Shown piece after piece: positions 34,983 through 64,000 of a stretch of DNA of 64,000 nucleotides. The stretch is from assembly GCA_002163005.1 (NCBI GenBank), contig MAAF01000040.1:62001-126000 (forward strand). Direction: 5' to 3'. A model generated the notes under the pieces. The model was not told where the DNA came from and did no database searches. It worked only from the letters and a program-made list of their open reading frames with translations. This DNA is from Colwellia psychrerythraea. Its GTDB lineage: Bacteria > Pseudomonadota > Gammaproteobacteria > Enterobacterales > Alteromonadaceae. Every line of letters starts with the position of its first letter. Position 1 is the stretch's first letter. The position numbers were made by a program, and so were the translations under genes.

Positions 34983-35068
34983 AAGGCTAACTACCATGCG
35001 ATTAAATAAACTATTTAAACTTAACATGTTACAAGTATTTAGTTAACCCTACGTTAGTTGTAGGAAAC

Positions 35069-35084: not shown

Positions 35085-35110
35085 CACTTACTCAATATCA
35101 GCTGAATAAA

Positions 35111-35160
35111 CACCCAAGCTATTTAAAGACGCGTGTTGCTAATTCCAGCTGAAACTTGCT
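35111..35160. repeat. relic of the MITE family terminus
   Basis: CACCCAAGCTATTTAAAGAC followed by ATTCCAGCTGAA parallels the left end of the 346-660 element (ACCC...CTACTTGAAGATGC, then TTCAGCTGGAA). Only one end is visible, so it is a fragment. Confidence 0.5.
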
Positions 35161-35239
35161 TCGTCCTAGCGCTTGGTTATAAATTAATACTCACCACCCT
35201 CCCCCTTAAGCTAACGAGGAAGTAGTGATGAACTGCGCG

Positions 35240-36379: not shown

Positions 36380-36691
36380 TTCATGCTTCCTGTTTTATCG
36401 TTATTATTTAGTACAACCATAATAAAACCCTCGCAATAAAATTGAATGAGTCGATTTACCCAATTAGCTTGTTATTTAGTCGCATACAAAAGGCTTACTA
36501 CTTTAGTGGGAGCAAGGATGAGAAATGAATAATGGTTTCTACTATTAGGATTAAAGGGGCTAATCGGGGGAGACTATTGAGCACTTAGCGAGAGCTATAA
36601 GGCTAATAAGTAAAAAATCTGAAATACAAAACTGACTTTATTTAATTGAGTTGTAAGGATTTTTTAAATAAACAATAGTAAGCCCAAGTAA

Positions 36692-36720
36692 TATACCCAA
36701 GCTACTTGAAGATACGTGTT
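36692..36720. repeat. MITE terminal-repeat copy
   Basis: TATACCCAAGCTACTTGAAG matches the end of the 346-660 element at 20 of 24 positions over the full repeat. It lies 39 bases beyond the stop codon of the ABC ATPase gene in the 36380-36759 gap; no partner end is visible. The gap otherwise holds the porin promoter region. Confidence 0.6.
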
Positions 36721-36759
36721 ATTGCCTTAAGCAAATAAATGTACTAATTTCTCCCCAAA

Positions 36760-38359: not shown

Positions 38360-39354
38360 TGAATAGACTTGGCATTGTTGGCGTTTTCCAACGTATTTTT
38401 CTGCCAGAAAGTCCCGTCACTTAATGCGGTCGCTTTACCCACCAAAGCGCTGCCACCCTGCTCGGCTAATATCTCGAACACTCGCTGACTTGCCGCTATT
38501 TCTTTGCTACCAAATTCACGCAATAAACCTGCGCGGTAGTCTTGTTTCAATAGGGTAAACACTGCTGCATTTTCGGCTTTTATTAAGGGACGAATACGTT
38601 GCCATTCTTTATCAGACGAAAATAATAGCTGTTTGGCATCAAGTGACGCTTGCAAGAATCGTGTTATCGCTTTGGGATGTTCATTGGCCCATGTTTGCTC
38701 AAAGACCCAGCCTAACAAGGGTATTTTCCCTTCAATACCTAATTCAGTCAGCATTTGAGGAACGGTCACTATTGGCTTATAACCTGCCGCTTTTAATCTC
38801 GCACCATAGTGCCAAAAGTTAATTGCTGCATCTAAATCACCGCGCAGCATTAGTCGATTTAATAGCGGTGGCACGGCAAAGGTAGGTTCAGTTTCATTTT
38901 TTAAATCAAGTCCATATTTTTTTTGACTGTAGGCTTGCAATAACAACCAACTTTTATCAACAGATCCACCGGCAATACCAATTTTTTTTCCTTTAAGATC
39001 GGCTAAAGTTTCGATTGATGAACTAGGCGAAACATAAAGTCCTCCGGTCGCCATTGAGGTAGGAAACATGGTGTACATTCTATGATCAAAACGTTGACGG
39101 TTCACCCAGAGCCAATCGCTAAGAATAATATCAACCGCATGACTTTGTAATGCTACCGCAGAGGCATTTTTACTGGCTAATGGCGTTACCTTTAGCTCGA
39201 ATTGATATTTTTTATCTAACTGGTGATGTTTAATCACATCAATTTCCCAGTTAACCGTGCCGTACTTTAAAACACCAACACGTACTTCAGGTTCAGCAAC
39301 CACGTAAAAAGATAAGAAAAAACATAACATTATGCTAACAAACCACTTATTCAT
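38356..39354 (-). CDS. ABC importer periplasmic binding protein (SsuA/NMT1-like)
   Basis: This 332-residue protein has a signal peptide ending near AEPEV. The two-lobe binding domain shows VRVGVLKYGTVNWEIDVIKH, ADLKGKKIGIAGGSVDKSW and DAAINFWHYGARLKAAG, as in the NMT1/SsuA family. These proteins normally bind small sulfonates, nitrate or pyrimidine precursors. Here the gene sits directly behind two TonB receptor genes with alcohol-regulon operators, so the ligand may be something carried across the outer membrane by those receptors, such as a PQQ- or metal-related compound. That link is inferred. Confidence 0.85.
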   Translation of the reverse strand: MNKWFVSIMLCFFLSFYVVAEPEVRVGVLKYGTVNWEIDVIKHHQLDKKYQFELKVTPLASKNASAVALQSHAVDIILSDWLWVNRQRFDHRMYTMFPTSMATGGLYVSPSSSIETLADLKGKKIGIAGGSVDKSWLLLQAYSQKKYGLDLKNETEPTFAVPPLLNRLMLRGDLDAAINFWHYGARLKAAGYKPIVTVPQMLTELGIEGKIPLLGWVFEQTWANEHPKAITRFLQASLDAKQLLFSSDKEWQRIRPLIKAENAAVFTLLKQDYRAGLLREFGSKEIAASQRVFEILAEQGGSALVGKATALSDGTFWQKNTLENANNAKSIQ

Positions 39355-39415
39355 ACTTATTGCCTTTCTTACGTTTTATACCAATCAAACTAATTTATTG
39401 ATCACTTAGTGACAA

Positions 39416-41563: not shown

Positions 41564-41628
41564 CGATTTGCTCTTATATGAGACAAAATACATACCTTAA
41601 TCCTATTCTGACTACTGCAACAATGCTT

Positions 41629-41666
41629 TCCTCCTTTAGTATGACTAAGCTCATCTTTTAGTGAGA
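41629..41666. promoter_or_regulatory. two island-operator copies before the ABC-linked TonB gene
   Basis: TCCTCCTTTAGTATGA (41629-41644) matches 11 of 12 fixed positions of TCATnCTnnAGnATGA. TCATCTTTTAGTGAGA (41651-41666) matches 9 of 12. They stand 66 and 88 bases before the chosen start at 41563, in the short gap between the two receptor genes. Confidence 0.6.
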
Positions 41667-41700
41667 ATTGCCTTGGGTGGCCATTCCCAAACTAGCCAAT

Positions 41701-44040
41701 TTAGAATTGATAATTAACACTTACGCTGATAGCGCGTGGTCTTGAAGGACCGACAAAATATTCATCAAATTCCGTCTCAGGATATAGCTCACCTAACACT
41801 TCATCCGCTTCACCGTAGGTACCAAAAGTATCAAAATGGCGATCAAAAAGGTTATCCACTTTAGCAGACAATCGTAGTTGCTCATTGATTTGATAATTGA
41901 GATAAATATTGGTAACCGCATAAGCCGATATTTTTTTGTTTTCATTGGCTTCATCACCGCGATAATAAGATGAAGAGGCATATAAAAATTCTGTACCGAC
42001 ATTTATCTCATCATTAAATTGCCAATTAGCATGGAGCTTAAACTGATGTTTAGGTTGTCCGGGGATCTCGTCACCTGGGCTGACTTCTCTATTGGGTCCC
42101 AATGGGTTAACTGGGCTAAAAGAAACAAAGGGAGATTCAAACGTTGCTTTTAATAAATTATAGCTAGCACCAAAATCAACGTCACTCAGCTGCATCGAAA
42201 ATGCCAGCTCTACCCCTTGACGTTGCGTTTTATCAAGATTGATAAAGTAACCTTCGTTGGATTTATCACCCGCCTGTTGAAAGATAATATCTTGATAACT
42301 CAAGGTTGAAAATACCGTCGCCACTGCTGAAAAATTTGTAATATCGTAATGTAAAGATGCTTCCGTTGTTTTTGCAACCACCTGCTCAAGCGGAGGATCG
42401 GCAACAAAAGCATTGGGTAATTTGCAAGGGTCTTCTTCATCCGCACAACTCAATTCAGCAGGGCTTGGTGTGCGGGAAGACTCACTGTAACTTACTTTAA
42501 CCGCGTATTCTTGGTTCAGTTGGTAGTTAACAGAAATCGCAGGATTAAAACGATGAAAAATGTGTTCACCGTTAAGTGACCCTTTACCACTTTCTATTTG
42601 ATCTTTCATACTCACATCGGCGTAATTGTATCGACCTGCGAGATTAAGCGTAAAATTTCCGCCAAATGTCATAGCATTTAAAAAATAAAGGTAATGCTGT
42701 TGAGTTTTCACCTTTAAGCTTACACGGGAGTCGCTATCATATAAGCCAATGCCCGTGACTGAACGATCATCGTTGATAGTGTCATTATGCAGTATTGCAA
42801 ATTCGGTATTACTGGTGAAACTAATTTGAGCTTGATCTGCACCCAAGCCAAAAATAAATTCATTATCGAACGAATAAAGAGAGTCGGGAGCGTCAAAATG
42901 GCTTAATCGAACCCATTGCAGTGCTGCGCCATAACTTTCACTATCAGTGAAGCCGGTATTAAAGGTGCCATCAACCTCATCTGCATCAATATCGCTAAGC
43001 TGACTTAACCAGACATCCTCATCATAACCAACAAAATGAACTCGCTCTAAAGAGTCATCTTTACCCTCTTCACACAAGCTATAAAGCGTACCAGACTCAC
43101 ACTCTTCATAATCGCTGTCATCACCATTTATGCTATTAATTTCGTTTTGGCGATAATAAATATTTGCCTGCCATGACGTTTGCTTGTTGATAACATTATC
43201 AGACTTAATACTAAACTGTTGAAAACTGGTCTCAGTTTTATCAGGCTGTGTATAAATAGCATTTCTACCCGCTAATTCAGCAAGCTGTTCAGGTATAGCG
43301 CCATTACCAAGCATTTCGTTATTATTAGCGGAAAAAGTAAAGTCGATGGTACGAACGTCACTGGCATAAGAGAGGGTTGCAAGCATCTGCTGCAATTCAC
43401 TTTCAGAATGATCTCGCCAGCCATCTTCTTGATAATTATTAGCGACAAAATAATAGCCCCAATTCCCCTGATTACCGCCTGATTGCACAGTAAATTGCTG
43501 CTGCCCAAAGTTGCCAAAGCGAGCCTCAAGTTCATTTTGAGTGTAGCTAAAGCCATTCTTGGTCTGTAGTGCTAGCGCACCACCTAAGGTATTTTGACCA
43601 AATGCAGGGTTAGAGCCAGAATAAAGGGCTACTGTATCAAGTGCCGCAAGCGGAATAAGGTCCCAATTAACCGTATCACCAAACGGTTCATTAAATCGTA
43701 CTCCATTTAAATAAACAGAGATCCCCTGCGGCAACCCCAATAATGGTGAAGCAGTAAAACCTCTGTATTGCACATCAGGCTGAAACGGATTATTTTGCAC
43801 GTCATTTATGTGCAAACTTACTAGCTGATTCTTCATATGTTCAGCTAAAGAAATGGCTTGTGATTGAGATAGCGCTTGCGCATTGATAGTTTGAACACTA
43901 CCAAAAGCACTGTATTCACTTACAGAGTTAGTCGACAATGGTGTTTGGCCATAGATATTGATTTTTTCAACATCATCAATATTTTGCCCTAACACGGGTA
44001 AAGTAATAAACAAATAAATACAGGCTGAGACGCGCTTCAT
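41701..44040 (-). CDS. TonB-dependent receptor, LutH-like
   Basis: This receptor has 779 residues from the second ATG (44040), which has AAGGA six bases upstream. Signal peptide to about residue 19. The plug carries NNPFQPDVQYRGFTASPLLG, PQGISVYLNGVRFNEPFGDT and NPAFGQNTLGGALALQTKNG, a pattern I associate with the receptors next to XoxF/lanthanide genes (LutH type), including the VNWDLIPL segment. Acidic loops (DDSDYEECESG, DEDVWLSQLSDIDADEVDG) could bind multivalent cations. The barrel ends AISVSVNYQF. A perfect operator lies 142 bases upstream. Lanthanide-chelate uptake is a reasoned inference, not proven. Confidence 0.88.
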   Translation of the reverse strand: MKRVSACIYLFITLPVLGQNIDDVEKINIYGQTPLSTNSVSEYSAFGSVQTINAQALSQSQAISLAEHMKNQLVSLHINDVQNNPFQPDVQYRGFTASPLLGLPQGISVYLNGVRFNEPFGDTVNWDLIPLAALDTVALYSGSNPAFGQNTLGGALALQTKNGFSYTQNELEARFGNFGQQQFTVQSGGNQGNWGYYFVANNYQEDGWRDHSESELQQMLATLSYASDVRTIDFTFSANNNEMLGNGAIPEQLAELAGRNAIYTQPDKTETSFQQFSIKSDNVINKQTSWQANIYYRQNEINSINGDDSDYEECESGTLYSLCEEGKDDSLERVHFVGYDEDVWLSQLSDIDADEVDGTFNTGFTDSESYGAALQWVRLSHFDAPDSLYSFDNEFIFGLGADQAQISFTSNTEFAILHNDTINDDRSVTGIGLYDSDSRVSLKVKTQQHYLYFLNAMTFGGNFTLNLAGRYNYADVSMKDQIESGKGSLNGEHIFHRFNPAISVNYQLNQEYAVKVSYSESSRTPSPAELSCADEEDPCKLPNAFVADPPLEQVVAKTTEASLHYDITNFSAVATVFSTLSYQDIIFQQAGDKSNEGYFINLDKTQRQGVELAFSMQLSDVDFGASYNLLKATFESPFVSFSPVNPLGPNREVSPGDEIPGQPKHQFKLHANWQFNDEINVGTEFLYASSSYYRGDEANENKKISAYAVTNIYLNYQINEQLRLSAKVDNLFDRHFDTFGTYGEADEVLGELYPETEFDEYFVGPSRPRAISVSVNYQF

Positions 44041-44181
44041 AAACATTCCTTAGATATTAATTAACGATGATGATGGTGCACTCTTTATTAAAAATCAATC
44101 AGAGAAAAGTCAGTTACAAGGTAAAGAACATATAATAAAGCCATATATTACAATTAGATAAAAAAATACATTTAATCGTTA

Positions 44182-49139: not shown

Positions 49140-49922
49140 CTATTTACGCCCATGTAGGGGTTTAAAACTCATCAGAGCAAAAAACGATGCAATGCTTGTT
49201 GCGATTAACACTGTCGTCAGAGCAAGGATGTTCATTTGTCCGTAAAGCGCAAACCGTAATAACTCAACACAAGCGGTAAAAGGATTGAACTGACAAAGCC
49301 AATATAACCACAAACTCGCCTCTTGCATTTTCCACAACGGATATAAGGCACTGGAGAGAAAGAACATGGGGAAAATAACAAAGTTCATCACACCAGCAAA
49401 GTTTTCCAATTGCTTGATTAGATTAGACAACATCAGCCCTAACGCGCCGAGAAAAAAGGCAATTAAAAAAATTGCTGGTATTGAGCTAACATAACCCATA
49501 AGCGGAATATCAACGTCAACTAGCTGCGCAAAGAGTAAAAAAATTACGACTTGTAAAAGTGACAGCAACGCACTGGCAATCAACTTACAACATAATAAAA
49601 AAGGTCGAGGTAGCGGACTCATCAATAAAACTTTCATGCTACCCATTTCACGATCGTAAACCATAGAAAGCGAACTTTGCATGCCATTAAATAAAATGAT
49701 CATGCAGCAAAGTCCTGGGGTAATATATTGCTGATAAGTAATATAGGTGCCGTAAGGCTCCATAATAGAAACACCCAGCGCCGCTCTAAAACCCGCAGCG
49801 AAAACAACCAACCAAAGTAGCGGTCTAACTAACGCACTTAATAAACGCGATCGTTGTTGGAAAAAACGTAAAACTTCACGCTTAACAATGCCATTAAAAC
49901 AATAAAGATAACGATTGTTCAT
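49140..49922 (-). CDS. pedC: PQQ-associated ABC-2 permease (PedC type)
   Basis: This 260-residue ABC-2 family permease has six helices and the segments GIVKREVLRFFQQRSRLLSA near the start and MSPLPRPFLLCCKL in the middle loop. It belongs to the permease group linked to quinoprotein alcohol dehydrogenase loci (PedC in Pseudomonas, LutF-like in methylotrophs). It overlaps the ATPase gene by one base. In P. putida the pedA1A2BC set is tied to growth with scarce lanthanides, so a role in lanthanide handling is plausible here. ABC-2 permeases are usually exporters, so direction of transport is uncertain. Confidence 0.85.
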   Translation of the reverse strand: MNNRYLYCFNGIVKREVLRFFQQRSRLLSALVRPLLWLVVFAAGFRAALGVSIMEPYGTYITYQQYITPGLCCMIILFNGMQSSLSMVYDREMGSMKVLLMSPLPRPFLLCCKLIASALLSLLQVVIFLLFAQLVDVDIPLMGYVSSIPAIFLIAFFLGALGLMLSNLIKQLENFAGVMNFVIFPMFFLSSALYPLWKMQEASLWLYWLCQFNPFTACVELLRFALYGQMNILALTTVLIATSIASFFALMSFKPLHGRK

Positions 49923-50650
49923 CAGCTGATCTCCACGTTAGCCGTTAACGTGCGATAAAGCTGGTATACGTCGGCGACATTATGCTCTTTACATAATTCA
50001 CCACTGATGCCCTGTGCTTGAATTTTCCCTTCATCGATAATAATTAATTGATCGTCTGCTGCTATTTCATCGATTAAATGTGTTGCCCATAACACACAAA
50101 TGCCTAATTGTTGGCTAAGCGAGCCAACGTATTCGGTGATCATTTTTCTGCTATCAATATCTAAACCAACCGTTGCCTCATCGAGTAACAATACTTTGGG
50201 TTGATGAATTAACGCTCGGGCAATTTCGACCCGGCGGCGATGCCCACCATTTAATGATCTTACTTTATCATTGAGTCGCTGCGTCAACTGAAGTTGAGAC
50301 AAAATATCGCTGATATTTTCTAGTGCTTGTGATGATGAAATACCATGTAGCGCCGCATAATAAGTTAAGTTTTGCTTAACGGACAAATCTAAATCTAGCG
50401 TGCTTTGCTGAAAGACCACGCCCATCGACTGCATGATTTTCGATCTCTCATGATTTAAGTCATAACCATTGATCTTAATATCCCCTGATGCCGCCTGATA
50501 AAGACCCGTTAGCATTGAGAATAAGGTGCTTTTTCCTGCACCATTAGGACCCAGTAACACATTAAAACCGCTTTTAATGCTTAGGCTTAAACCATCAATT
50601 GCCGCCTTTTTACCATAATGAAAAGTGAGTTCGTTGGTAATAATACTCAT
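49922..50650 (-). CDS. PQQ-associated ABC transporter ATPase (PedB type)
   Basis: This 242-residue ATPase starts at ATG 50650, overlapping the beta-propeller stop by ATGA; the tracked start is nine codons earlier. Walker A is GPNGAGKST and Walker B KVLLLDEATVGLD. The signature is LNGGHRRRVEIARAL in place of LSGGQ, a variation typical of the PQQ-linked ATPase family. It pairs with the downstream ABC-2 permease. Confidence 0.88.
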   Translation of the reverse strand: MSIITNELTFHYGKKAAIDGLSLSIKSGFNVLLGPNGAGKSTLFSMLTGLYQAASGDIKINGYDLNHERSKIMQSMGVVFQQSTLDLDLSVKQNLTYYAALHGISSSQALENISDILSQLQLTQRLNDKVRSLNGGHRRRVEIARALIHQPKVLLLDEATVGLDIDSRKMITEYVGSLSQQLGICVLWATHLIDEIAADDQLIIIDEGKIQAQGISGELCKEHNVADVYQLYRTLTANVEIS

Positions 50651-51651
50651 GGCACATTTCGTATCACTACGCCCCACGGATAACGTCCTACTTTAATTGA
50701 TTTTGTTACTTTCATGCGTTTAACATCAATCACTGACACATCACCACTAATACCATTAGTCGTTAATAGCTGACTTTGATCATGATTAAAAGCAAGCTGC
50801 CACACTCTACGCCCAACTAATAAATATTTCTCAACCGTCATTTTTTGACGATCAATAACGGCCACATGATTTGCGGGGCCTAATGCCACGAACGCATATC
50901 GTCCATCCTGTGTTAATTCGATGCCAACAGGTTGAACACGGTCATGATGAATACCTCGTATATCAAAGGTAAATTCCTTAATAATTTTTTGCGTGGCAAC
51001 ATCAAGTATCACCACAGTGCCGCCAATTTCAGAGCTGACCCATAAATATTTATTATCGTCGGTAAATTTAGCTGACCTAGGTCGTGCACTCACTAAAGTA
51101 TTAGCAAAGTTTTCATGGGTTTTGGTGTCAATCCAATGCACCATATTGGTCGTTTCCGAGGTTACCACGACAATTTTTCCATCGGGACTTACCGCTAGTC
51201 CTTCAGGTTCAACCCCTACATCTATCTGCGCGATAACAGTAGCAGAGTCAATATCAATCACCGTAAGCAAGGCATCATCTTCATTAGAGGTATAAATAAT
51301 TTTGCCATTGGGATGTAATGCAATAGTTTCAGGATCTTCACCAGAAGGTAGCTCGCCGATGATCTGCTCTGTTTCTACATCAAGTATTTGAATCCTATCT
51401 GACTCGCTCGCACAAATATAAGCAAGCGACTGTTCCTTATTGAGAATAATGCCTCGAGGTCGTTCACCTATCGAGATTGTTTTTATAACTTTATTGAGGC
51501 TTAAATCGATAACCGAAATATTGTCATCTTTTTCATTGGTGACATACGCAAATTCAGTGGCATAACCAGCGGTAGCGTTAAACAAAACGGCTACTACCGA
51601 TAATCTAAAAAATTTTCTAACCTTTTCTCTAAAATAAAGTGTCTTTTTCAT
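50647..51651 (-). CDS. PQQ-associated YVTN beta-propeller protein
   Basis: This 334-residue periplasmic protein has a signal peptide (to about residue 31) and about seven YVTN-type blades, each with repeats such as AYVTNEKDDNISVIDLSLNK, AYICASESDRIQILDVE and IYTSNEDDALLTVIDID. It is the beta-propeller protein of PQQ-dependent catabolism loci (PedA2-like position). Acidic DDN and EDD turns could bind cations. It overlaps the ATPase gene by four bases and follows the binding-protein gene by 109 bases. Confidence 0.87.
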   Translation of the reverse strand: MKKTLYFREKVRKFFRLSVVAVLFNATAGYATEFAYVTNEKDDNISVIDLSLNKVIKTISIGERPRGIILNKEQSLAYICASESDRIQILDVETEQIIGELPSGEDPETIALHPNGKIIYTSNEDDALLTVIDIDSATVIAQIDVGVEPEGLAVSPDGKIVVVTSETTNMVHWIDTKTHENFANTLVSARPRSAKFTDDNKYLWVSSEIGGTVVILDVATQKIIKEFTFDIRGIHHDRVQPVGIELTQDGRYAFVALGPANHVAVIDRQKMTVEKYLLVGRRVWQLAFNHDQSQLLTTNGISGDVSVIDVKRMKVTKSIKVGRYPWGVVIRNVP

Positions 51652-51760: not shown

Positions 51761-52987
51761 TTACCGTGATAATTCGCATTGAGATTCTTGCGCATCAAAA
51801 CCAAGCGTATCAAGTTCAGTTATTGGATGAAGCATGCCAGGCTGTGGTGACTGCGATACCAAAGCGTGGGGATGCACCAAAGCCAGCGGCATTCTTAACT
51901 GTCGGCTCCAAGCACGAAAACTAAGCTTACGCCCCTTGTACGCTGCCAATTCAAAATCCACCGAGTTAATATATTCGATGAGCTTGTTACTAGAGTTTGA
52001 ATGAAGTTTATGCACCGATTGCGCAACACTGCGCACGGCAAGATAACCAGCAAAGTCTATTTCATTCATTTTTCTATCAGCCATTTCCATAAAACGATTT
52101 TGCAGTTGAGTAGCGCCCCACTGTTCTATCGCACTATGCCATGCCAAAGCTTCCAAACCAGCCGAGCCTATAACAGGCCGAGGTAAATAAGTATTAAAGG
52201 GTAAAAATTCAGCAAAAGCTTTCGACTTGTCAGCAACATAAACAACATCATAATCTTTTACGGTTTGAGTAAACAAAGGAATTTCTTGTTGTGCACTACG
52301 CCTAAGATCGGTATTAAAATCCCACTGTTTTTCATCGATAATTTTCAAACCAAAACGTTTCGCCGCCCGTTTAAACGATTTGGCTAGCTGAAGATCTTCG
52401 GCTTTACTACCCTGTATTAATAATACTTTATTCATCCGACGATAAAGCAACCACTGAGCAAGGGCATCAGATTTCATGGCATCACTGGGTATGGTATGAA
52501 ATACAGAAGCTAAACACTGGGCATTGCGTAATTCATCAGCAGATTCACTGACATTAAACAATAACACCGGCTTGTTTTTGGCCCAACGATCTACTTGCAC
52601 CAGTTGTGTTAATGGCGCTTGAAGAATAAAAATGCGTCGGCCCTGTTGATATTCTTCTTCTAGATATTCTAAAAACTGCGCTGTTTTCGTCGCAACAAAA
52701 TAGTTTAATGTAAAGTGTTGCTGTAAAAATTTCCCAGTAGTATTAGAGTCATTGATCGCAAGCTTAGCCCCCATATAGCCACTGTCTTCTGGCTTTTTAA
52801 AAAGAGTAGATACGCCGGGAGCTTGTTGCGGCGCCAACTTCACATAACTGATATCAAGGGTGATTGGACTTGATATTGCCTCAGTACTTGAAATTGCATT
52901 AGTACAATAAAAACAAAAGAGCCATACACCGCTAGCTACACTTTTCACTAGATACTTCTTAAACCTTACTCTTGTCACGATAAACAT
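51761..52987 (-). CDS. PQQ-associated periplasmic ABC binding protein
   Basis: This 408-residue protein has a signal peptide and a two-lobe fold related to branched-chain amino-acid binding proteins, but of the PQQ-linked subfamily (ITLDISYVKLAPQQAPG near the start, GAKLAINDSNTTGKFL, NKVLLIQGSKAEDLQLAKSF, VVYVADKSKAFAEF). It begins the pedA1A2BC-like operon. The divergent cytochrome c gene shares its upstream region, where a perfect operator lies 165 bases from this start. The ligand may be a metal or metal complex; inferred from the P. putida and Methylobacterium counterparts. Confidence 0.85.
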   Translation of the reverse strand: MFIVTRVRFKKYLVKSVASGVWLFCFYCTNAISSTEAISSPITLDISYVKLAPQQAPGVSTLFKKPEDSGYMGAKLAINDSNTTGKFLQQHFTLNYFVATKTAQFLEYLEEEYQQGRRIFILQAPLTQLVQVDRWAKNKPVLLFNVSESADELRNAQCLASVFHTIPSDAMKSDALAQWLLYRRMNKVLLIQGSKAEDLQLAKSFKRAAKRFGLKIIDEKQWDFNTDLRRSAQQEIPLFTQTVKDYDVVYVADKSKAFAEFLPFNTYLPRPVIGSAGLEALAWHSAIEQWGATQLQNRFMEMADRKMNEIDFAGYLAVRSVAQSVHKLHSNSSNKLIEYINSVDFELAAYKGRKLSFRAWSRQLRMPLALVHPHALVSQSPQPGMLHPITELDTLGFDAQESQCELSR

Positions 52988-53273: not shown

Positions 53274-53714
53274 ATGATAAAACTTAACTTAGGCCGCAGC
53301 CATTTAATTGCATTCATATCAATATGTTCATTTGGCGTAGCGGCTCACGGCCCTGTGACACCACAAGCAATAAACACCTCAACATTGCCGACTTTAGGCG
53401 AAGAATGGGAAGACACTAACCCTTACCGCACAAAAGACGGTGAAGTAATGACAGAAATTTTACGCGTTGGTGCCTCAGCCTATAACCAAAATTGCGCTCG
53501 CTGTCATGGTTTAGGCGGAATATCTGGCGGTATTGCTCCTGATTTACGTCAATTACCAGCAGATTTTGATGGCGATGAGTGGTTTATTTATCGTGTACAA
53601 AATGGCGCGGTACGTAATGGTGCTGTTTACATGCCGAAAATGACCGAACATTTAAACCAAGAAGCACTTTGGTCTATTCGTACTTGGTTAGAGTCAGTCA
53701 GTGATGAAGAATAA
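53274..53714 (+). CDS. pedF: cytochrome c550, PedF type
   Basis: This 146-residue periplasmic mono-haem cytochrome has a signal peptide ending at VAAHG and a mature start (HGPVTPQAINTSTLPTLGEE) very close to PedF. The haem motif is CARCHGLGG (about 69-77) and the axial Met is in YMPKMTEHL. It accepts electrons from the PQQ alcohol dehydrogenase. It overlaps the MoxJ-like gene by 11 bases, giving the order cytochrome, binding protein, dehydrogenase, as in xoxGJF-type clusters with the dehydrogenase last. Confidence 0.92.
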   Translation: MIKLNLGRSHLIAFISICSFGVAAHGPVTPQAINTSTLPTLGEEWEDTNPYRTKDGEVMTEILRVGASAYNQNCARCHGLGGISGGIAPDLRQLPADFDGDEWFIYRVQNGAVRNGAVYMPKMTEHLNQEALWSIRTWLESVSDEE

Positions 53715-54591
53715 ATTTTATTATCTATTTTTGTGGTTAAGTTGTTGTAGCCTATTTTGCTCAACAACTTTTGCGCGATCTTATGATGATATTATTGAAA
53801 GCAATGAGATCACCGTTGCCGTTTATAGCGATTTCATCCCCTTTTCATACAGAGAAAACGGGCAAGCAAAAGGCATTGATATTGAGGTCGCAAAACATAT
53901 TGCCAAACAGTTAGGCGTGACACTTCGTTTCAGGTGGGTAACCGCTGATGAAAATGTTGAGGATGACTTGCGCAATAATTTATGGAAAGGACACTTCCTT
54001 AAACGCAGTGTTGCAGACTTAATGCTTAGAGTTCCCTACGATAAAGAATATTCTGAGCTGCGTGACGATATTGGTGAACGGGTACATGAACAGGTACACA
54101 TGTTCGCTCCCTACCATACTGAGTCATGGAAAATCGTTTTCAATACTAAAAAAATTGACGATGTTAGCACCATGGCAGTCTTTCAATATCATGACATTGG
54201 TGTCGAAGTAGACTCCATTCCACAATTTTACCTGCTATCTGTCTTCAATGGTCGAATGCGCAACAAAACCAAACAGTTCCCTTCGTTAGCCTTAGCTATT
54301 TCAGCAATGTCTGAACAGAAGATTGATGCCGTCATGGGACTTCGCAGTCAGGTGAGTCATTACCAACATCAACTTAACTCCCCTACTTACCAATTAGCAA
54401 CGAATGCCTTTCCGATGTTAGGAAAACAACAATGGGATATTGGCATGGCGGTAAAAAGTGACTATCGCCAATTAGGTTATGCCATTGCTGATATTGTCGA
54501 GGCTATGATAAACCAAGGACAAATGAAGAAAATATTTAAACAGTACAGCGCTGTTTACCAAATTCCAAACCTGTATTCAGTCAGTGAATAA
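53704..54591 (+). CDS. MoxJ/XoxJ-like periplasmic binding protein
   Basis: This protein has 295 residues from ATG 53704 (GTG 53701 is possible). The signal peptide is followed by a family-3 solute-binding fold: SNEITVAVYSDFIPFSYREN, GQAKGIDIEVAKHIAKQLGV and DIGMAVKSDYRQLGYAIADI. It matches the MoxJ/XoxJ group that accompanies quinoprotein dehydrogenases and is thought to help their maturation, possibly by interacting with the apo-enzyme, rather than to import a solute. It overlaps the cytochrome gene and precedes the dehydrogenase by 276 bases with its own operator. Confidence 0.87.
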   Translation: MKNKFYYLFLWLSCCSLFCSTTFARSYDDIIESNEITVAVYSDFIPFSYRENGQAKGIDIEVAKHIAKQLGVTLRFRWVTADENVEDDLRNNLWKGHFLKRSVADLMLRVPYDKEYSELRDDIGERVHEQVHMFAPYHTESWKIVFNTKKIDDVSTMAVFQYHDIGVEVDSIPQFYLLSVFNGRMRNKTKQFPSLALAISAMSEQKIDAVMGLRSQVSHYQHQLNSPTYQLATNAFPMLGKQQWDIGMAVKSDYRQLGYAIADIVEAMINQGQMKKIFKQYSAVYQIPNLYSVSE

Positions 54592-54867: not shown

Positions 54868-56631
54868 ATGATAACAACATGTAAAACAAAGGTATTGTCA
54901 TTATCGATGGCAATTTCTTTAGCGTTAACCGGCATAGCAAATGCTGATGTAACCGATAAAGATATTGCCAATGACCAAATGACAACTGATGATGTTGTGT
55001 CCTATGGACTTGGTCTAAGAGGACAACGTTACAGCCCTCTTGATAAAATAAATATCGACACAGTTAAAGAAATGCGTCCAGTCTGGTCGTTCTCATTAGG
55101 TGGGGAAAAACAGCGTGGTCAAGAATCTCAGCCTATGGTCAAAGATGGCGTCATGTATATTACTGGCTCATACTCTCGAGTGTATGCTATAGACGTGCAT
55201 ACAGGTGACGAACTTTGGCAATATGATGCAAGATTACCTGATGGTATTATGCCTTGTTGTGATGTTATCAACCGTGGTGCAGCACTATACGGCGACCTAG
55301 TTATTTTTGCTACGCTTGATGCAAAACTAGTCGCGCTTAATAAAGACACAGGCAAAGTAGTTTGGAAAAAGAAAGTAGAAGATTATAAAGCCGGTTATTC
55401 AATTACAGCTGCTCCTATTATTGTTAAAGGTAAAGTCATCACAGGTGTTGCCGGTGGTGAATTTGGTGTAGTAGGTAAAGTAAGAGCTTATGATGCTACC
55501 AATGGCAAACTAGTTTGGGAACGCCCAACGGTTGAAGGCCACATGGGCTACATCTGGAAAAATGGCAAAAAAGTTGATAATGGTATTTCTGGTGGCAAAC
55601 CAGGAGAAACATGGCCAGCAGAACTTTGGAAGTCAGGTGGAGCTGCGCCTTGGTTAGGCGGTACTTATGATGCCGATGTTGATTTATTATTCTTTGGTAC
55701 CGGTAACCCTGCACCATGGAACTCTCATTTACGTCCAGGTGATAACCTTTTCTCCTCATCACGTTTAGCTATTGATCCTGATACAGGTAAAATTGTTTGG
55801 CATTTCCAAACCACGCCACACGACGGTTGGGATTTTGATGGTGTTAACGAACTAGTTTCTTTCGATTACAAACAAAATGGTAAAACCGTCAAAGCTGCGG
55901 CAACGGCTGACAGAAACGGTTTCTTCTATGTACTTAATCGTGAAAATGGTGATTTCATTCGAGGTTTCCCATTTGTTGATAAACAAACATGGGCTTCAGG
56001 ACTTGATAAGAACGGTCGCCCTATTTATATCGATAGTAATAGACCATCGGACCCAAGCAAGTCAAAAGATGGCAATAAAGGTAGCACAGTCATTGCAGCC
56101 CCTGCTTTCTTAGGTGGTAAAAACTGGATGCCAATGGCATACAGTCAAGATACTGAATTGTTCTATGTACCATCAAACGAATGGGAAATGGATATCTGGA
56201 ACGAACCTACCGCTTATAAAAAAGGTGCGGCTTATCTAGGTGCTGGCTTTACCATTAAAGCGATTAATAAAGACTATATTGGTGTATTAAAAGCAATCGA
56301 CCCTAAAACAGGTAAAGTTGTTTGGCGCTATAATAACTATGCTCCATTATGGGGTGGTGTATTGGCCACTGCAGGTAACCTAGTATTTACCGGGAACCCT
56401 GAAGGATACTTATTAGGTCTTGACGCTAAGACGGGTGAAGTTAAATATAAATTCAATACCGGCTCAGGCATTGTTGGTTCACCGATTACCTGGGAAATGG
56501 ATGGCGAACAATACCTTTCAGTTTTATCTGGTTGGGGTGGTGCTGTACCTTTATGGGGCGGTGATGTTGCCAAGCGTATCAAGCACTTAAACCAAGGTGG
56601 TAGTGTGTGGACGTTTAAACTACCTAAGTAA
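54868..56631 (+). CDS. PQQ-dependent alcohol dehydrogenase, lanthanide-type active site
   Basis: This 587-residue periplasmic quinoprotein oxidises primary alcohols and passes electrons to cytochrome c550. Signal peptide ends near residue 26 (ANA). The eight-bladed propeller shows repeated AxDxxTGxxxW tags ([24 protein letters not shown]). Active-site features: the vicinal Cys130-Cys131 disulfide (MPCCD), metal ligands Glu198 (GGEFG) and Asn280 (GTGNPAPW), catalytic Asp322 and a second Asp324 in [11 protein letters not shown]. Asp at the +2 position is found in lanthanide enzymes (XoxF Asp301, PedH Asp325), whereas calcium enzymes have Ala or Ser. So PedH/XoxF-like metal use is predicted. There is no cytochrome domain fused. 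A strong terminator follows. Confidence 0.93.
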
Positions 56632-56920: not shown

Positions 56921-58441
56921 ATGATCTATGCAAACCCAGGCAGTGAAGGTTCTGTCGTTTCTTTTAAACCTAAATATGAAAACTTTATCGGCGGTAAGTG
57001 GGTTGCTCCAGTAAAAGGAAATTACTTTACTAACACCACCCCAGTAACTGGCGAAGCAATTTGTGAAATACCACGTTCAAGCGCTGAAGATATTGAGTTA
57101 GCTCTTGATGCTGCTCATGCTGCAAAAACAGCATGGGGAAAAACCTCAGTACAAGATCGCTCAAACATCTTATTAAAAATTGCTGACCGTATTGAAGCAA
57201 ACCTTGAGTTAATAGCAGTAGCTGAAACTTGGGATAATGGTAAACCAGTACGTGAAACACTCAATGCTGACATCCCGTTAACGGTTGATCATTTCCGCTA
57301 TTATGCTGGCTGTATCCGTGCTCAAGAAGGTACTCTTTCACAAATAGATGACGATACTGTTGCTTATCACTTCCATGAGCCTATCGGTGTTGTTGGTCAA
57401 ATAATTCCGTGGAACTTTCCTATGCTGATGGCTGCATGGAAATTAGCACCAGCACTTGCTGCGGGTAACTGTATTATCCTTAAACCAGCTGAGCAAACAC
57501 CGGCAAGTATTCTTGTATTTATGGAGTTGATTGCTGACTTATTACCTGATGGCGTATTAAACATTGTTAATGGTTACGGTAAAGAAGCCGGTGAAGCATT
57601 AGCGACTAGTACACGTATTGGCAAAATAGCCTTTACCGGTTCAACACCTGTTGGCCAACATATATTGAAATGTGCTGCTGAAAATTTAATCCCTTCTACG
57701 GTAGAGCTTGGTGGTAAATCACCAAACATTTTCTTTAGTGATATCACTCAATTTGAAGATGACTACCTTGATAAATGTGCTGAAGGTTTTGCTTTAGGTT
57801 TCTTTAACCAAGGTGAAGTATGTACATGTCCTTCTCGTGCACTAGTACAAGAAGATATTTTTGATGTGTTCATGGAAAAAGTACTTGAGAAAACCAGAAA
57901 TATCGTCCGTGGTAACCCACTTGATGTTAATACCATGGTTGGTGCACAAGCGTCTAAAGAACAATATGATAAAATCCAAGGTTACCTACAAATAGGTAGA
58001 GATGAAGGTGCAACGGTACTTTCTGGTGGTAGCGCTGAAAGTTTAGACGGCCCACTAGGAACGGGTTACTACATCCAACCAACGATTTTAAAAGGTAAAA
58101 ACTCAATGCGAGTTTTCCAAGAAGAAATTTTTGGACCTGTTATTTCTGTTACTACTTTTAAAGATGCTGAAGAAGCCTTACAAATTGCTAACGATACTGC
58201 TTTTGGTTTAGGTGCGGGTGTTTGGACACGTGATGCTAACCTTGCTCATCGTATGGGCCGTGGTATTGAATCTGGACGAGTGTGGACTAACTGTTACCAT
58301 TTATATCCTGCTCATGCTGCATTTGGTGGTTATAAGAAATCAGGTATTGGTCGTGAAACACACAAAATGATGCTTGATCATTATCAGCAAACTAAGAATT
58401 TATTAGTAAGCTATAGCACAAGTCCGTTAGGTTTCTTTTAA
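56921..58441 (+). CDS. exaC: NAD-dependent aldehyde dehydrogenase, ExaC/AldB type
   Basis: This 506-residue cytosolic enzyme oxidises the aldehyde made by the periplasmic dehydrogenase to the acid. Catalytic Cys301 ([10 protein letters not shown]), general base Glu262 (VELGGKSPN), and Asn164 (IIPWNFP) are in place. The N-terminus ([19 protein letters not shown]) and the C-terminal [15 protein letters not shown] are diagnostic of the ExaC/AldB acetaldehyde dehydrogenase group. Transcribed alone between two terminators, with a perfect operator upstream. Confidence 0.94.
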
Positions 58442-58568: not shown

Positions 58569-60746
58569 ATGACGATTTATTTGGGTGTTAACATGCCTTC
58601 TACACAATTAAAAAATCTCAAAATATGGCTTATCCTTAGCCTACTTTTAATGTTAACAACCTCCTTTTATTCTGTTGCTTTTAATACAACGACTCATGCC
58701 AATGTCACCGCAATTTCAGACGAAATAGCACAACTTTTTCCTAGTGCAACACGTGTAGGCCCTATCGATAAAAAAATTGCCGTAACCCCTGTTTATCAAC
58801 TGAATGAACTATTGGGATATGTTTTTGAATCTGATGATTTTGTCAATTTCATTGGTTTTTCTGGACAAACAATTAACCTGTTAATAGGTATTGATACCCA
58901 AGGCGTTTTTACCGGTTTAAAAATACTCAATCATAATGAACCGATTTTTTTGCACGGCTTAGGCGAACAGCCTATGTTTAAATTTATTAAACAATATCAA
59001 GGGCATTCAATTAAAGAGCGATTTATTGTTAACGCTCGCTCTAAATCGTCTGTTGATGCTACCTATATTGACGGCGTCACGCGCGCAACAATATCAGTAC
59101 TGGTAATCAACGACACCATTACAGCTTCAGCACTTAAAGTCGCACGTGAAAGACTCTCCGGCTTTGTTGCGCCATCACAAACCAGCATCAATCCTGACTA
59201 TTATCAAACACTCAATTTTGAAGAACTTATAAACAAAAATTTCATTAAACATTGGCAGCTTACCCGTGAGCAAGCAATCGCGTTGACCAAAACATCACCG
59301 ACAAATTTAGTGGATGAAATTAACCAAGTTACTGAAGAGGGAGATGAGTTTATCGACTTGTATTTTGCCTTCGTCAATATCCCTATCATTGGTAAAAATT
59401 TATTAGGTGAACAAGAATACCAGCGTTTGCTCGATAGTTTAAAACCCGGCGAACACGCGTTAATGATGTTTAGTGACGGTAAATATCATTTTGTTAGTGA
59501 AGACTTTACCCCACAAACAGTGCCTAATCGTTTAAGTGCACAGCAAGCGACTTTGCCTGTTGATATTCGTGATATCGACTTTTACAGCTTTTACGATCCT
59601 TCGTTTTCGCTCACCGTCCCCGACTTTAATGAAATTAAGGTTTTTAGAATAAAGTCTCAGTCGGGTTTTGAATTAAATAAAGAATTTTCTTTATCGTTAA
59701 TGCTGAGTTACAACAAGTCGTTCTTATCGAAGCAACAACACAGTTTTACTATCAATAACACCTTACCAGACAGTTTATTTATTCATAAAGAACCCGAAAT
59801 TAACCCTGAAGAAAATCGACCTTTGTGGCTAAAAATTTGGATAAGCCGTAGCACGGATATCATTATACTTGGCATTTACCTTATCTTTTTAGTTTGGCTA
59901 TTTATCAAACAAGAAACACTCGCCAAAAATGCTAGAACCACCCACAAAATACGCTTCGCCTCATTAACCTTTGTCATTATTTTTATAGGCTTTTATGCGC
60001 AAGGCCAATTATCAGTGGTCAATATTTACACCTTGTTCTTATCACTCTGGCAGGGTTTTAATATTGATGTATTCCTGCTTGATCCAATCATTTTTATTTT
60101 GTGGATCTTTGTCTTTATTAGTCTTTTTCTTTGGGGTAGAGGTTTGTTCTGTGGTTGGTTATGTCCTTTTGGCGCATTACAAGAATTTGCCGCGTTAGTG
60201 GCAAGTAAACTCAAAATAAAACAAATTAAAATAAAACCTCAACACCATAAGGCTGCGCAAAAAATAAAATATATCGTGCTAATTTTACTGGTTGGTAGTT
60301 CATTTTATTCACTTACCCTTGCAGAGCAGTTGGCTGAAATTGAACCCTTTAAAACCAGTATCACGCTCAATTTCGTTCGTTATTGGCCGTTTGTCTTGTA
60401 TGTAGTATTACTGCTTGCTCTTAGCTTAAAGATTCACAAAGTTTACTGTCGTTATTTGTGCCCGTTAGGTGCAGGACTTGCGGTTATTGGCCGATACCCT
60501 CTTTTCAAATGGCTAACACGCCGTCAAGAGTGTGGTACACCCTGTCAACTTTGTCGTAATAAAAAGTGTGGTATTGATGCCATCAATAAAGACGGTTCTA
60601 TTGACTATGGTGAGTGTATTCAATGCTTGGAATGCTTAGTTACCATCAAAGACCCAAAAGAGTGTGTCGTAGATAAGTATTCGAAAAAAAGAAAAGCAGT
60701 GGTCGTGGTAACACCGAACACTGATTTTATCAATAACCTCAGTTGA
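58569..60746 (+). CDS. NosR/NirI-like FMN-binding polyferredoxin membrane protein
   Basis: This 725-residue protein has a first membrane helix (about 15-35), a periplasmic FMN-binding domain (about 70-200; the covalent flavin site is in DGVTRATIS), further periplasmic sequence to about 420, about five membrane helices, two CxxxCP motifs (CGWLCPFG, CRYLCPLG) in cytoplasmic loops, and a C-terminal pair of 4Fe-4S sites (CGTPCQLCRNKKCG, CIQCLECLV). It is a NosR/NirI-like electron-transfer or regulatory protein. No nos or nir genes are present, so here it probably feeds or senses electrons for the alcohol system. ATG 58569 lacks a clear ribosome site; ATG 58593 is an alternative. Confidence 0.85.
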   Translation: MTIYLGVNMPSTQLKNLKIWLILSLLLMLTTSFYSVAFNTTTHANVTAISDEIAQLFPSATRVGPIDKKIAVTPVYQLNELLGYVFESDDFVNFIGFSGQTINLLIGIDTQGVFTGLKILNHNEPIFLHGLGEQPMFKFIKQYQGHSIKERFIVNARSKSSVDATYIDGVTRATISVLVINDTITASALKVARERLSGFVAPSQTSINPDYYQTLNFEELINKNFIKHWQLTREQAIALTKTSPTNLVDEINQVTEEGDEFIDLYFAFVNIPIIGKNLLGEQEYQRLLDSLKPGEHALMMFSDGKYHFVSEDFTPQTVPNRLSAQQATLPVDIRDIDFYSFYDPSFSLTVPDFNEIKVFRIKSQSGFELNKEFSLSLMLSYNKSFLSKQQHSFTINNTLPDSLFIHKEPEINPEENRPLWLKIWISRSTDIIILGIYLIFLVWLFIKQETLAKNARTTHKIRFASLTFVIIFIGFYAQGQLSVVNIYTLFLSLWQGFNIDVFLLDPIIFILWIFVFISLFLWGRGLFCGWLCPFGALQEFAALVASKLKIKQIKIKPQHHKAAQKIKYIVLILLVGSSFYSLTLAEQLAEIEPFKTSITLNFVRYWPFVLYVVLLLALSLKIHKVYCRYLCPLGAGLAVIGRYPLFKWLTRRQECGTPCQLCRNKKCGIDAINKDGSIDYGECIQCLECLVTIKDPKECVVDKYSKKRKAVVVVTPNTDFINNLS

Positions 60747-60969: not shown

Positions 60970-62118
60970 ATGAGTACAATTAAAACAATTACCGCGGTCA
61001 GTAATGCGACTGATCCCTTCCTTGCAAGCCAAGAATTGTACCAACAACTTAATCAAGACAACATCTGCTTTGTGCTGTTTTATTGCTCCTCAACTTATGC
61101 GCTCGAAACACTTGCAAAAACGATGGAAGATACCTTCAAAGAAACTAAAATTGTTGGTTGTACTACGGCGGGAGAAGTAACACAGCAAGGTTACGAACAA
61201 CACTCTATTGTTGCCATAGGCTTTTCTAGTGACTACTTTGCCATCAGTGCTAAACTTATCGAGTCGATGGAAAAGTTCGATACTATCAATGCACAATCAA
61301 CAATCAATGAGTTAGTAGAAGATTGTCAGTCAAAAGATTTAACCGCAATTAAAAACAACAGTTTTTTACTCACCTTACTCGATGGCCTTTCCTCAAACGA
61401 AGAACAATTCCTAGTCACGTTAAACTCAGCAACTCGAGGCATCCCCCATTTTGGCGGCTCTGCTGGAGACGATATTAACTTAGCGAAAACGCATGTGTAT
61501 TATCAAGGTAATTTTTATCAAAATGCCGCTATTGTGATTATGGTAAACACCCTTTTATCTTTCGAGGTTTTTAACTGTCATCATATAGCACTGCCGACAG
61601 AAAAATTAGTGGTAACGGCGGCAGATGCTGATAGTAGAACGGTCTATGAATTGAATGCTGAGCCTGCTGCGCTTGAGTATGCAAAGTTATTAAATATGGA
61701 TTTAAAGGATTTAAGTCCTGAAGTTTTTTCCCTCAATCCGTTGGCAGTAAAAGTCGGTGGCCAATATTATATTCGTTCAATACAAAAAGTGAATGAAGCT
61801 GATTTAAGTCTAACATTCTACTGCGCGGTAGATGTTGGCATTGTGCTCACTGCGGTAGAAATGGGTGACATCTTTGATCCAGTAATTCAAAAATTAGATG
61901 AAATTTCACACCGTTACGGCAAACCTGAGCTAGTACTCGCTTGTGATTGCTTTTTAAGACGCTTAGAAATCGAACAAAAAGGCTTAGAGAATGAAGTACG
62001 AAAATTAAACAATAAGTACAACATTGCTGGATTTAATACCTATGGTGAACACATTAATGGCACGCATTTAAATCAAACCTTTACCGGTGTTTACATTGCT
62101 GGAGGCATTAATGAGTAA
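60970..62118 (+). CDS. FIST-domain sensory protein
   Basis: This 382-residue soluble protein has a FIST_N domain (about 25-225; TKIVGCTTAGEVTQQGYEQH, LLTLLDGLSSNEEQF, GGSAGDDINL) and a FIST_C domain (about 230-365; ending FNTYGEHINGTHLNQTFTGV). FIST domains are thought to sense small ligands. The gene overlaps the sensor-kinase gene by eight bases, the same pairing as next to ercS' in the Pseudomonas aeruginosa exa locus, so it probably supplies the input to that kinase. Confidence 0.9.
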   Translation: MSTIKTITAVSNATDPFLASQELYQQLNQDNICFVLFYCSSTYALETLAKTMEDTFKETKIVGCTTAGEVTQQGYEQHSIVAIGFSSDYFAISAKLIESMEKFDTINAQSTINELVEDCQSKDLTAIKNNSFLLTLLDGLSSNEEQFLVTLNSATRGIPHFGGSAGDDINLAKTHVYYQGNFYQNAAIVIMVNTLLSFEVFNCHHIALPTEKLVVTAADADSRTVYELNAEPAALEYAKLLNMDLKDLSPEVFSLNPLAVKVGGQYYIRSIQKVNEADLSLTFYCAVDVGIVLTAVEMGDIFDPVIQKLDEISHRYGKPELVLACDCFLRRLEIEQKGLENEVRKLNNKYNIAGFNTYGEHINGTHLNQTFTGVYIAGGINE

Positions 62119-64000
62119 CCAAACATTAGAAGAAGAGCTGGCTCAGTTAAAGATTAAAAATATCAAGTTAAAAAAAATTAACAATGCCTTAATGCAACGT
62201 GTAGAAGACAGCGGTGAAAATCAATATGCGCCTTATACCGCCTTTGAACATTCGGTACACTTAGCTGAACAAGTTAGAGAAAAAACGCAAACATTAAATG
62301 AAACACTGGCAAAACTTGAGCGCAGTAATCACGCATTAAAACAAGCAAATGCTAAAGCTAATCTGTTCAAACAACGTTTTATTGATGCAATAGAAAGTAT
62401 TTCAGAAGCCTTTGTTTTACTCGACAGCAAAGGTCGAATTATTTTACAAAACAGCAATTTCGCCAACTTTTGGCTCGACTCTGGTTTACCCATTACAGAA
62501 GGTGTCAATCTCAAAGACTTAAAAGATTTAGCCAAAACCCGCGGTATTATTCAACGAGCATCTCCAGGTGATGCGTTTGCCAGCCCCGTATATCAATTAT
62601 CAGATGGTCGATGGTTTCAATTAAACGAACACCAAACCAGCGAAGGTGGTTGGGTAATGCTCTATACCGACATTACCGCGGTAAAAACGGCAGAAAGTGC
62701 CCGTTATGAACGAGGCATGGCGCAAAAGTCGCTGTTACTACAAAACTTGATTGATAACATTTCTCAAGGTGTAGTGTTGATTAGCAGTCATAACAAAATC
62801 GAAGTATGGAATACGCGTTTTGCCCAGATCAGTCAATTATCCCCTCACCTGTTACGGGGCACGCCCACCACTGATAATATGCAACATTTAACGGAACTCG
62901 ATTTAGCACAAAAATCAAGTACCAATAACTATTCTTACACCCAAACATTGATTAACGGAACCGTATTAGAAATAAAAAGTCACCGACTTAAAAATGGAAA
63001 AACAATTAAAACCTATAGCGATATTACCGAACGTCATCGCTACGCAGAATCATTAAGAAAAAGTGAAAGTTGGTTACGATTAATCACAGATAACGTACCC
63101 GCAATGATCGCTTATGTTGGTAAGGATCTAAAGTATCAGTTTACCAATCAAGTGTACGTTGACTGGTACGGTTGGCCTCAGGGTGGCCTTAATGGCTTAG
63201 AGTTAGAACAAAGTCGTGTCCATTCAAATTTTACTAAAATAAGACGTTATGTTGACCGCGCGTTGAAAGGTGAAAGTGTTAGTTTTACCATTGATGAAAA
63301 AAACAAATTTGGTGAATCGAGCTATTTATTAAAATCTTATGTGCCTAATCGCGATGTTAACGGCGATGTACTTGGATTTTTCGTACTCATTCGTGATATT
63401 ACCGAACGAAGAAAGAATGCCCTAGCTCTGCAAAAAGCCCATGACCAGCTGGAAGTTAGGGTACAAGAGCGAACCTTTCAATTACAAAGTTTAAATGACA
63501 AGCTGCAAGTGGAAGTAGAAGATCGCCGTCAAGCGCAATCTAATCTAGTCAAAGCAAAAAGCGAAGCAGAGTTTGCTAACATTTCAAAAACAAAATTTCT
63601 TGCCGCCGTGAGTCATGATTTATTACAACCATTAAATGCAGCACAATTGTTTACCAGCTCATTAATGGAGCGCCCTTTAGCAGATAACACTAAAAATCAG
63701 CTTAACTCGGTCGCTAATTCATTAGACGATTTAGAGAATTTAATATCTACACTGGTTGATATTTCAAAACTTGATGCTGGCGTGGTCAAAGCCGATAAAA
63801 GCTCGTTTAAATTGTCAGAATTACTCAACAACCTAGTGAGTGAGTACCAACAAATCAGTGGTCAATTTCAAGTGGAATTACACTATGTCAGTAGCGATGT
63901 TGTGGTAAATAGCGACAGTGTACTACTTGCCCGCATATTGCGTAATTTCCTATCCAACGCCTTTAGATATACTAATAACGGCAAAGTGTTACTTGGCTGT
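62111..64000 (+). CDS. PAS sensor histidine kinase, ErcS'/NahK-like (3' end outside window)
   Basis: This frame opens at ATG 62111 (MSNQTLEEELAQLKIKNIKL) and stays open to the window end, so it is absent from the ORF track. It has an N-terminal coiled coil (to about 85), PAS domains (about 95-200, 210-310, 315-440), a second coiled coil and the phospho-acceptor region AVSHDLLQPLNAAQLF (about 500-515), then the start of the ATPase domain (LLARILRNFLSNAFRYTNNG). The SHDLLQPL H-box is typical of NahK and ErcS' kinases; the missing end should hold the rest of the ATPase and probably a receiver. With the FIST protein and the ErbR-like regulator it completes an exa-type circuit. Confidence 0.9.
   Translation, partial: MSNQTLEEELAQLKIKNIKLKKINNALMQRVEDSGENQYAPYTAFEHSVHLAEQVREKTQTLNETLAKLERSNHALKQANAKANLFKQRFIDAIESISEAFVLLDSKGRIILQNSNFANFWLDSGLPITEGVNLKDLKDLAKTRGIIQRASPGDAFASPVYQLSDGRWFQLNEHQTSEGGWVMLYTDITAVKTAESARYERGMAQKSLLLQNLIDNISQGVVLISSHNKIEVWNTRFAQISQLSPHLLRGTPTTDNMQHLTELDLAQKSSTNNYSYTQTLINGTVLEIKSHRLKNGKTIKTYSDITERHRYAESLRKSESWLRLITDNVPAMIAYVGKDLKYQFTNQVYVDWYGWPQGGLNGLELEQSRVHSNFTKIRRYVDRALKGESVSFTIDEKNKFGESSYLLKSYVPNRDVNGDVLGFFVLIRDITERRKNALALQKAHDQLEVRVQERTFQLQSLNDKLQVEVEDRRQAQSNLVKAKSEAEFANISKTKFLAAVSHDLLQPLNAAQLFTSSLMERPLADNTKNQLNSVANSLDDLENLISTLVDISKLDAGVVKADKSSFKLSELLNNLVSEYQQISGQFQVELHYVSSDVVVNSDSVLLARILRNFLSNAFRYTNNGKVLLGC

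Follow-up and report, generated by a model that had tools for sequence, protein, structure and literature searches.

A candidate PQQ alcohol dehydrogenase-linked member of the NosR superfamily in Colwellia psychrerythraea

NosR was first proposed as acting in nosZ expression. PceC/CprC and NirI, whose partners are a reductive dehalogenase or a nitrite reductase, have an FMN_bind plus polyferredoxin membrane layout, and by this description they can be likened to the protein reported here. A general association between FMN/NapH-like proteins and PQQ-dependent alcohol dehydrogenases (PQQ-ADHs) was published in 2021 (PMC8238504). For such proteins in the exaA clusters of 172 genomes, Meheust et al. 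proposed that they carry electrons away from the ADH, a task for which other microbes have a cytochrome c. Another related system is the ped cluster of Pseudomonas putida, whose gene table lists a SoxYZ-like protein (PP_2677), a SoxH-like protein (PP_2678) and a rhodanese (PP_2666), and does not list a NosR-like protein; for lanthanide ADHs that have adjacent cysteines, this Sox relay has been linked to their maturation or to control of their redox state (PMC12997753).

We analyzed a stretch of 64,000 nucleotides from Colwellia psychrerythraea (GCA_002163005.1, contig MAAF01000040.1, positions 62,001 to 126,000), hereafter the window, in which one ORF encodes a full-length NosR-like protein (table 1). 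Its first ATG is the longest option for the start, and an in-frame Met at codon 9 is an alternative. Pfam places FMN_bind at residues 98–183 together with two Fer4_5 stretches, and the NCBIfam NosR model (NF046105) covers residues 42–700. The 12 Cys residues of the protein are located in the motifs CGWLCP and CRYLCP and in the C-terminal ferredoxin; each of them is common to NosR and is kept in at least 99% of 112 aligned relatives. With its FMN_bind domain, a Fer4_5 membrane polyferredoxin, two CxxxCP motifs and a C-terminal ferredoxin, the protein falls into the NosR/NirI/NapH-like superfamily. A sequence-only reading of this DNA had described a NosR-like protein with FMN and 4Fe-4S sites encoded after an aldehyde dehydrogenase gene, and the domain matches and the 12 Cys residues agree with it.

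An AlphaFold2 model of the protein (mean pLDDT 78) starts with an N-terminal signal helix, includes one domain that matches RnfG (7zc6_G, E 4e-6) and has a block of membrane helices around residues 419–640. Searches for relatives in the PDB, both by sequence and by fold, found RnfG chains only, which match the FMN domain only. The protein has Cys residues for four FeS sites and a periplasmic FMN-type domain, in which Thr174 would carry the FMN. This architecture supports electron transfer between membrane and periplasm.

Table 1. The NosR-like protein, its motifs and the neighboring genes (coordinates of the window).
Feature	Position	Strand	Basis and remarks
NosR-like flavo-iron-sulfur membrane protein (PQQ-linked lineage)	58569..60746	+	725 aa; Pfam, NCBIfam, tree, alignment
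DGVTRAT codons, ApbE-type flavinylation motif with Arg for Gly	59070..59090	+	Sequence, alignment counts
First CxxxCP motif (C528, C532)	60150..60164	+	Alignment
Second CxxxCP motif (C627, C631)	60447..60461	+	Alignment
C-terminal 8-Cys ferredoxin-like segment	60531..60665	+	Two [4Fe-4S] expected; cluster type inferred from NosR
ABC permease, PedC-like	49140..49922	-	TIGR03861, 486 bits, over cut-off
ABC ATPase, PedB-like	49922..50677	-	TIGR03864, 356 bits, over cut-off
Beta-propeller, PedA2-like	50647..51651	-	TIGR03866, 522 bits, over cut-off
PQQ_ABC_bind, PedA1-like (lanthanide transporter)	51761..52987	-	TIGR03863, 506 bits, over cut-off
PedF cytochrome c550	53274..53714	+	TIGR04494, 187 bits, over cut-off
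PedG/MoxJ-like periplasmic binding protein	53701..54591	+	PF00497; weak TIGR03871
PQQ-dependent alcohol dehydrogenase, PedH/ExaF-like; WDFD (lanthanide-type) signature, vicinal CC	54868..56631	+	TIGR03075, 795 bits
ExaC-type aldehyde dehydrogenase	56921..58441	+	NF050026, 953 bits, over cut-off
NosP-type FIST sensor	60970..62118	+	NF041558, 565 bits, over cut-off
NahK/ErcS'-like hybrid histidine kinase	62087..64000	+	Continues beyond window end; start codon unsettled; full gene L007:5088-7676; NF041832, 534 bits, over cut-off

The gene sits between exaC and nosP inside a PQQ-ADH island of the ped/exa type, and 127 bp separate it from the aldehyde dehydrogenase gene, which precedes it on the same strand. 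PedF, the PedG/MoxJ-like protein, the PQQ-ADH, ExaC, the NosR-like protein, NosP and NahK are all encoded on one strand; the four PedA1A2BC-type genes, whose role is taken from the literature (PMC12997753), are divergent. The WDFD signature of the ADH contains an Asp two residues past the catalytic Asp, WD[FY]D is present in 60 of 62 homologs, and the CC pair was found in all 62 ADHs examined. By analogy with XoxF/PedH, the window ADH is probably lanthanide dependent. On the minus strand, the window also contains genes for a LuxR regulator, a porin-like protein, an SsuBCA-like ABC transporter and a TonB receptor (34323–44046), which match those located directly after NahK in relatives (loci L044–L051); thus, the 34–64 kb region looks like one rearranged alcohol/lanthanide island. 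Alteromonadaceae, Vibrionaceae and Pseudomonas all have cases of NosP-NahK encoded beside a PQQ alcohol cluster, and this NO-sensor pair seems to be tied to alcohol oxidation rather than denitrification.

No nos genes were found beside the NosR-like gene in its cluster. The sequence-only reading had noted a lack of N2O or nitrite reductase genes, which holds at the locus; for the genome it is wrong, since contig C75 carries a complete nosRZDFYL cluster (nosR, nosZ, nosD, nosF, nosY and nosL). The NosR of this cluster scores 1057 bits with NF046105, an equivalog model whose cut-off is 1000 bits, and is 38% identical to the window protein. As the nos cluster carries its own NosR, the window gene encodes a second, different protein. 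Nos genes lacking a NosR of their own had been named in that reading as evidence against it, and nosZ on this contig has an adjacent NosR. It could be argued that the window protein is nevertheless a second NosR for the N2O reductase, placed beside alcohol genes by chance, because the genome has nosZ and the two proteins share 38% of their residues. We consider this highly improbable: nosZ is already served by an adjacent NosR, each of the 18 further carriers in the sampled family genomes shows the PQQ-type copy alone, and the tree, the motif and the lack of nos genes near any of 72 lineage loci reject both a second NosR and a chance neighbor.

With NF046105, the window protein (636 bits) is below the cut-off; six others of its lineage score 520–657 bits and three nos-linked proteins 1057–1233 bits. 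A tree built from 112 sequences is parted into two sides by one branch (length 0.60, SH-aLRT 100). The nos side holds 37 nos-linked and 3 unplaced rows with no PQQ-linked row, and the PQQ side holds all 46 PQQ- or ExaC-linked rows and 26 unplaced rows with no nos-linked row. Position five of the flavinylation motif is Gly in 38 of 40 sequences on the nos side (Ser in the other 2), and in none of the 72 on the PQQ side, which have Lys (59), Arg (7), Met (4) or Ser (2). The motif recognized by ApbE is D-x-x-[S/T]-G-A-[S/T], in which a Gly-to-Ala change halves flavinylation of one model protein (PMC12052999). The DGVTRAT of the window protein does not match this motif, keeping every position except the Gly. 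An apbE gene was found in 12 Lys-form loci, mostly directly downstream of the NosR-like gene, a sign that flavinylation of the protein may be retained. Three ApbE flavin transferases are encoded in the window genome (contigs C70, C23 and C110), none of them in the window. Met occupies the altered position (DGISMAT) at loci L204 and L299 and in further alphaproteobacterial members. As judged by model scores, tree and motif, the window protein belongs to a distinct lineage, and we read it as a dedicated PQQ-ADH-linked member of the NosR superfamily.

To investigate the distribution of this lineage, we used a family sample of 199 genomes and a class sample of 369 genomes. In the family, matches to the window protein form two groups, one of 47–71% identity (19 genomes, including the window's own) and one of 35–39%. 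All 18 fetched loci of the first group adjoin ExaC and/or PQQ-ADH and/or NosP-NahK, and both fetched loci of the second lie in nos clusters. A PQQ-ADH homolog of 77% identity or more is encoded in each of the 19 genomes of the first group and in no other genome of the sample (Fisher P = 6e-27, uncorrected for kinship); in one draft the match is a fragment of 82% identity. Three family genomes that have only distant PQQ-ADHs (41–42%) lack a NosR-like protein of this lineage. In the class sample, where types were assigned by similarity to the two sides of the tree and by motif, the PQQ-linked type was detected in six genomes, all of which have a lanthanide-type ADH (at least 61% identity). This ADH is present in 13 of the 369 genomes, and its association with the PQQ-linked type is significant (P = 5e-10); nos-type NosR in the same sample has no significant association with it (3/36, P = 0.12). 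Thus, presence of the protein predicts that of the ADH, and the converse does not hold. The co-occurrence with XoxF/PedH genes, proposed in the sequence-only reading as a check, was therefore borne out by all carriers in both samples (19/19 and 6/6).

A scan of GTDB genomes detected the lineage in, among others, Colwellia, Paraglaciecola, Shewanella, Alteromonas, Grimontia, Vibrio, Enterovibrio, Marinobacter, Halomonas, Zhongshania, Stutzerimonas, Janthinobacterium, Massilia, Polaromonas, Methylopila and Methylobacterium. The recurrent position of the gene is beside PQQ-ADH/ExaC or pqqBCE: at least one gene of the PQQ-ADH system is present in 54 of 72 loci, pqqB/C/E in 15 and apbE in 12. The module is also present on plasmids of Methylorubrum extorquens and Variovorax boronicumulans, with apbE directly downstream. 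Among 27 carriers with no PQQ-ADH near the locus, an ADH of 62–81% identity is encoded elsewhere in 22, two have one of only 55–56%, and the search found no match in three drafts. Ten nos-bearing genomes have an ADH of 72–81% identity, and eight of them possess a second, PQQ-type NosR, the two exceptions being Pseudomonas.

In some Marinobacter and Stutzerimonas-like genomes (loci L097, L099, L103, L105 and L169), the NosR-like gene lies among unrelated genes, with the ADH elsewhere, as if it had been separated from the cluster yet retained. No shared function of the neighbors was found in these loci lacking PQQ genes. In Marinobacter salarius R9SW1 (L103, genome G569; C1:3600271-3601996), the search hits the lanthanide-type ADH in three overlapping stretches, one of which contains an internal TGA, which looks like a frameshift; the NosR-like gene is intact.

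The neighbors of the gene bear on two readings of its function. The protein might supply redox power for lanthanide or PQQ acquisition, as a periplasmic reductase for a metallophore or another ligand taken up via the linked TonB receptors and ABC transporters. A PedA1A2BC-like transporter adjoins the gene, and TonB receptors are near it in beta- and alphaproteobacterial loci as well as in the window's own island. However, an adjacent receptor is missing from many loci, and lanthanide(III) ions, cerium(IV) apart, need no reduction for uptake; we regard this reading as unlikely. It is also conceivable, if slightly more doubtful still, that the protein is a redox-sensing regulator coupled to NosP-NahK signaling or to transcription of the ADH genes, since most family loci have the genes for the NosR-like protein, NosP and NahK next to one another and NCBIfam calls its NosR model a transcriptional regulator. 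On the other hand, NosP-NahK is not adjacent in many other lineages, all electron-transfer sites are kept, and the ped cluster of P. putida has NosP-NahK with no NosR-like protein in its gene table (PMC12997753).

The distribution of PedF is relevant to the model of Meheust et al. (2021), under which the NosR-like protein would take electrons from the PQQ-ADH to the respiratory chain, in parallel to or instead of cytochrome c550. This model fits the 9 of 36 ADH-holding loci with no PedF in the fetched stretch, but some of these stretches are truncated loci (e.g., L048), and both the window cluster and the other 27 loci include a gene for PedF, which argues against replacement of cytochrome c550 as the general case and means that a catalytic electron sink already exists. 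Moreover, PedE/PedH activity in P. putida requires PedF (PMC12997753). Such a conduit seems rather unlikely to us.

We favor over the conduit a supporting reductive role in maturation or repair of the PQQ-ADH system, fed from the quinol pool, which in our judgment has about an even chance of being correct. Electrons would be supplied by the quinol pool, or by a donor in the cytoplasm that reduces the C-terminal ferredoxin, and the FeS clusters would pass them to the periplasmic FMN, as proposed for NosR. There, the electrons may maintain part of the ADH system in the redox state that it needs to function. This maturation or repair step could act, for example, on the vicinal disulfide, on PQQ itself or on the chain that loads the metal, and catalytic electrons would exit via PedF. 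The NosR-like protein would thus do the job of the thiol-based SoxYZ/SoxH/rhodanese relay of Pseudomonas and methylotrophs. Counting for this role are genetic linkage to the lanthanide-type PQQ-ADH, PedF, a PedABC-type transporter, ExaC and PQQ biosynthesis, the co-occurrence with the ADH in both samples, the separate lineage with its own motif and no nos genes, the electron sink already provided by PedF, the complementary distribution with the SoxYZ-like relay (see below) and the CC pair of the ADHs examined, given the published tie of the Sox relay to ADHs of this kind. Against it count the motif without the Gly of the ApbE motif, the carriers that have both modules (13 of 56), the small number of independent pairs (see below), and, among the 27 carriers with no ADH near the locus, the three drafts that gave no ADH match and the two with only one of 55–56%.

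Profile searches were carried out with a SoxYZ model in 77 genomes and with a CXXCW rhodanese model in 58. By these searches, the window genome has neither a SoxYZ-like nor a CXXCW rhodanese gene, and none of the family carriers tested reaches either cut-off. Among 65 tabulated genomes, a biased set in that most were found via the NosR-like protein and in that, for a few, the fetched stretch yielded no ADH, 43 have the NosR-like protein only, 13 both modules, 9 SoxYZ only and none neither. The SoxYZ-like relay is therefore present in all nine tabulated ADH genomes without the NosR-like protein and is not found in 43 of 56 carriers. A class subset of 13 genomes, drawn regardless of either module, showed the NosR-like protein only in four, both in two and SoxYZ only in seven (P = 0.021). 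The distribution of the CXXCW rhodanese largely tracks that of SoxYZ. Strict mutual exclusion is rejected by the carriers of both modules. Independent pairs on the ADH tree never run against the pattern; there are only four starred pairs, which is too few. The complementary distribution of the NosR-like protein and the SoxYZ relay is suggestive. It gives a more specific form to the proposal of the sequence-only reading that the protein may connect electrons of the quinone pool to the periplasm, for maturation or regulation of the quinoprotein system. A tentative hypothesis, which we hold as possible rather than probable, is that the flavo-FeS NosR-like wire and the SoxYZ/SoxH/rhodanese thiol relay are non-homologous alternatives for one unrecognized need of lanthanide-dependent PQQ-ADHs, and that flavinylation in the NosR-like lineage takes place at an altered site where Lys or Arg stands for Gly.

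In the openly accessible articles searched, we found no published precedent for a separate lineage with the replaced Gly, its near-perfect tie to the lanthanide-type ADH, its coexistence with PedF or its complementarity with the Sox relay, and nothing on point was found on NosR with XoxF or with lanthanide. Under the database label NosR/NirI, the lineage would be misread as denitrification genes; here it marks rare-earth alcohol oxidation. The two modules that seem to divide genomes make the function of accessory genes of lanthanide ADHs testable by deletions and swaps, and the changed flavinylation motif offers a direct test of ApbE specificity.

Compared with known systems, the window protein is like NosR of nosRZDFYL clusters in its periplasmic FMN_bind domain, membrane helices with two CxxxCP motifs and 8-Cys C-terminal ferredoxin, but it differs in its score below the NF046105 cut-off, its separate lineage, the replaced Gly, and linkage to PQQ-ADH with no nos genes in 72 loci. 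In the exaA clusters of Meheust et al. (2021; PMC8238504), as here, a membrane protein that combines FMN_bind with PF12801 is encoded together with a PQQ-ADH, often along with apbE; the window locus also holds PedF, and the specific tie to the lanthanide-type ADH, the altered motif and the complementarity with SoxYZ do not feature in the part of that article covered here. The P. putida ped cluster (PMC12997753) shares with the window PedF, PedG, PedA1A2BC, PQQ-ADH, ExaC/PedI, NosP, NahK/PedS1, a LuxR regulator and a porin, whereas its SoxYZ-like and rhodanese genes are not found in the window genome and the window has a NosR-like gene in addition.
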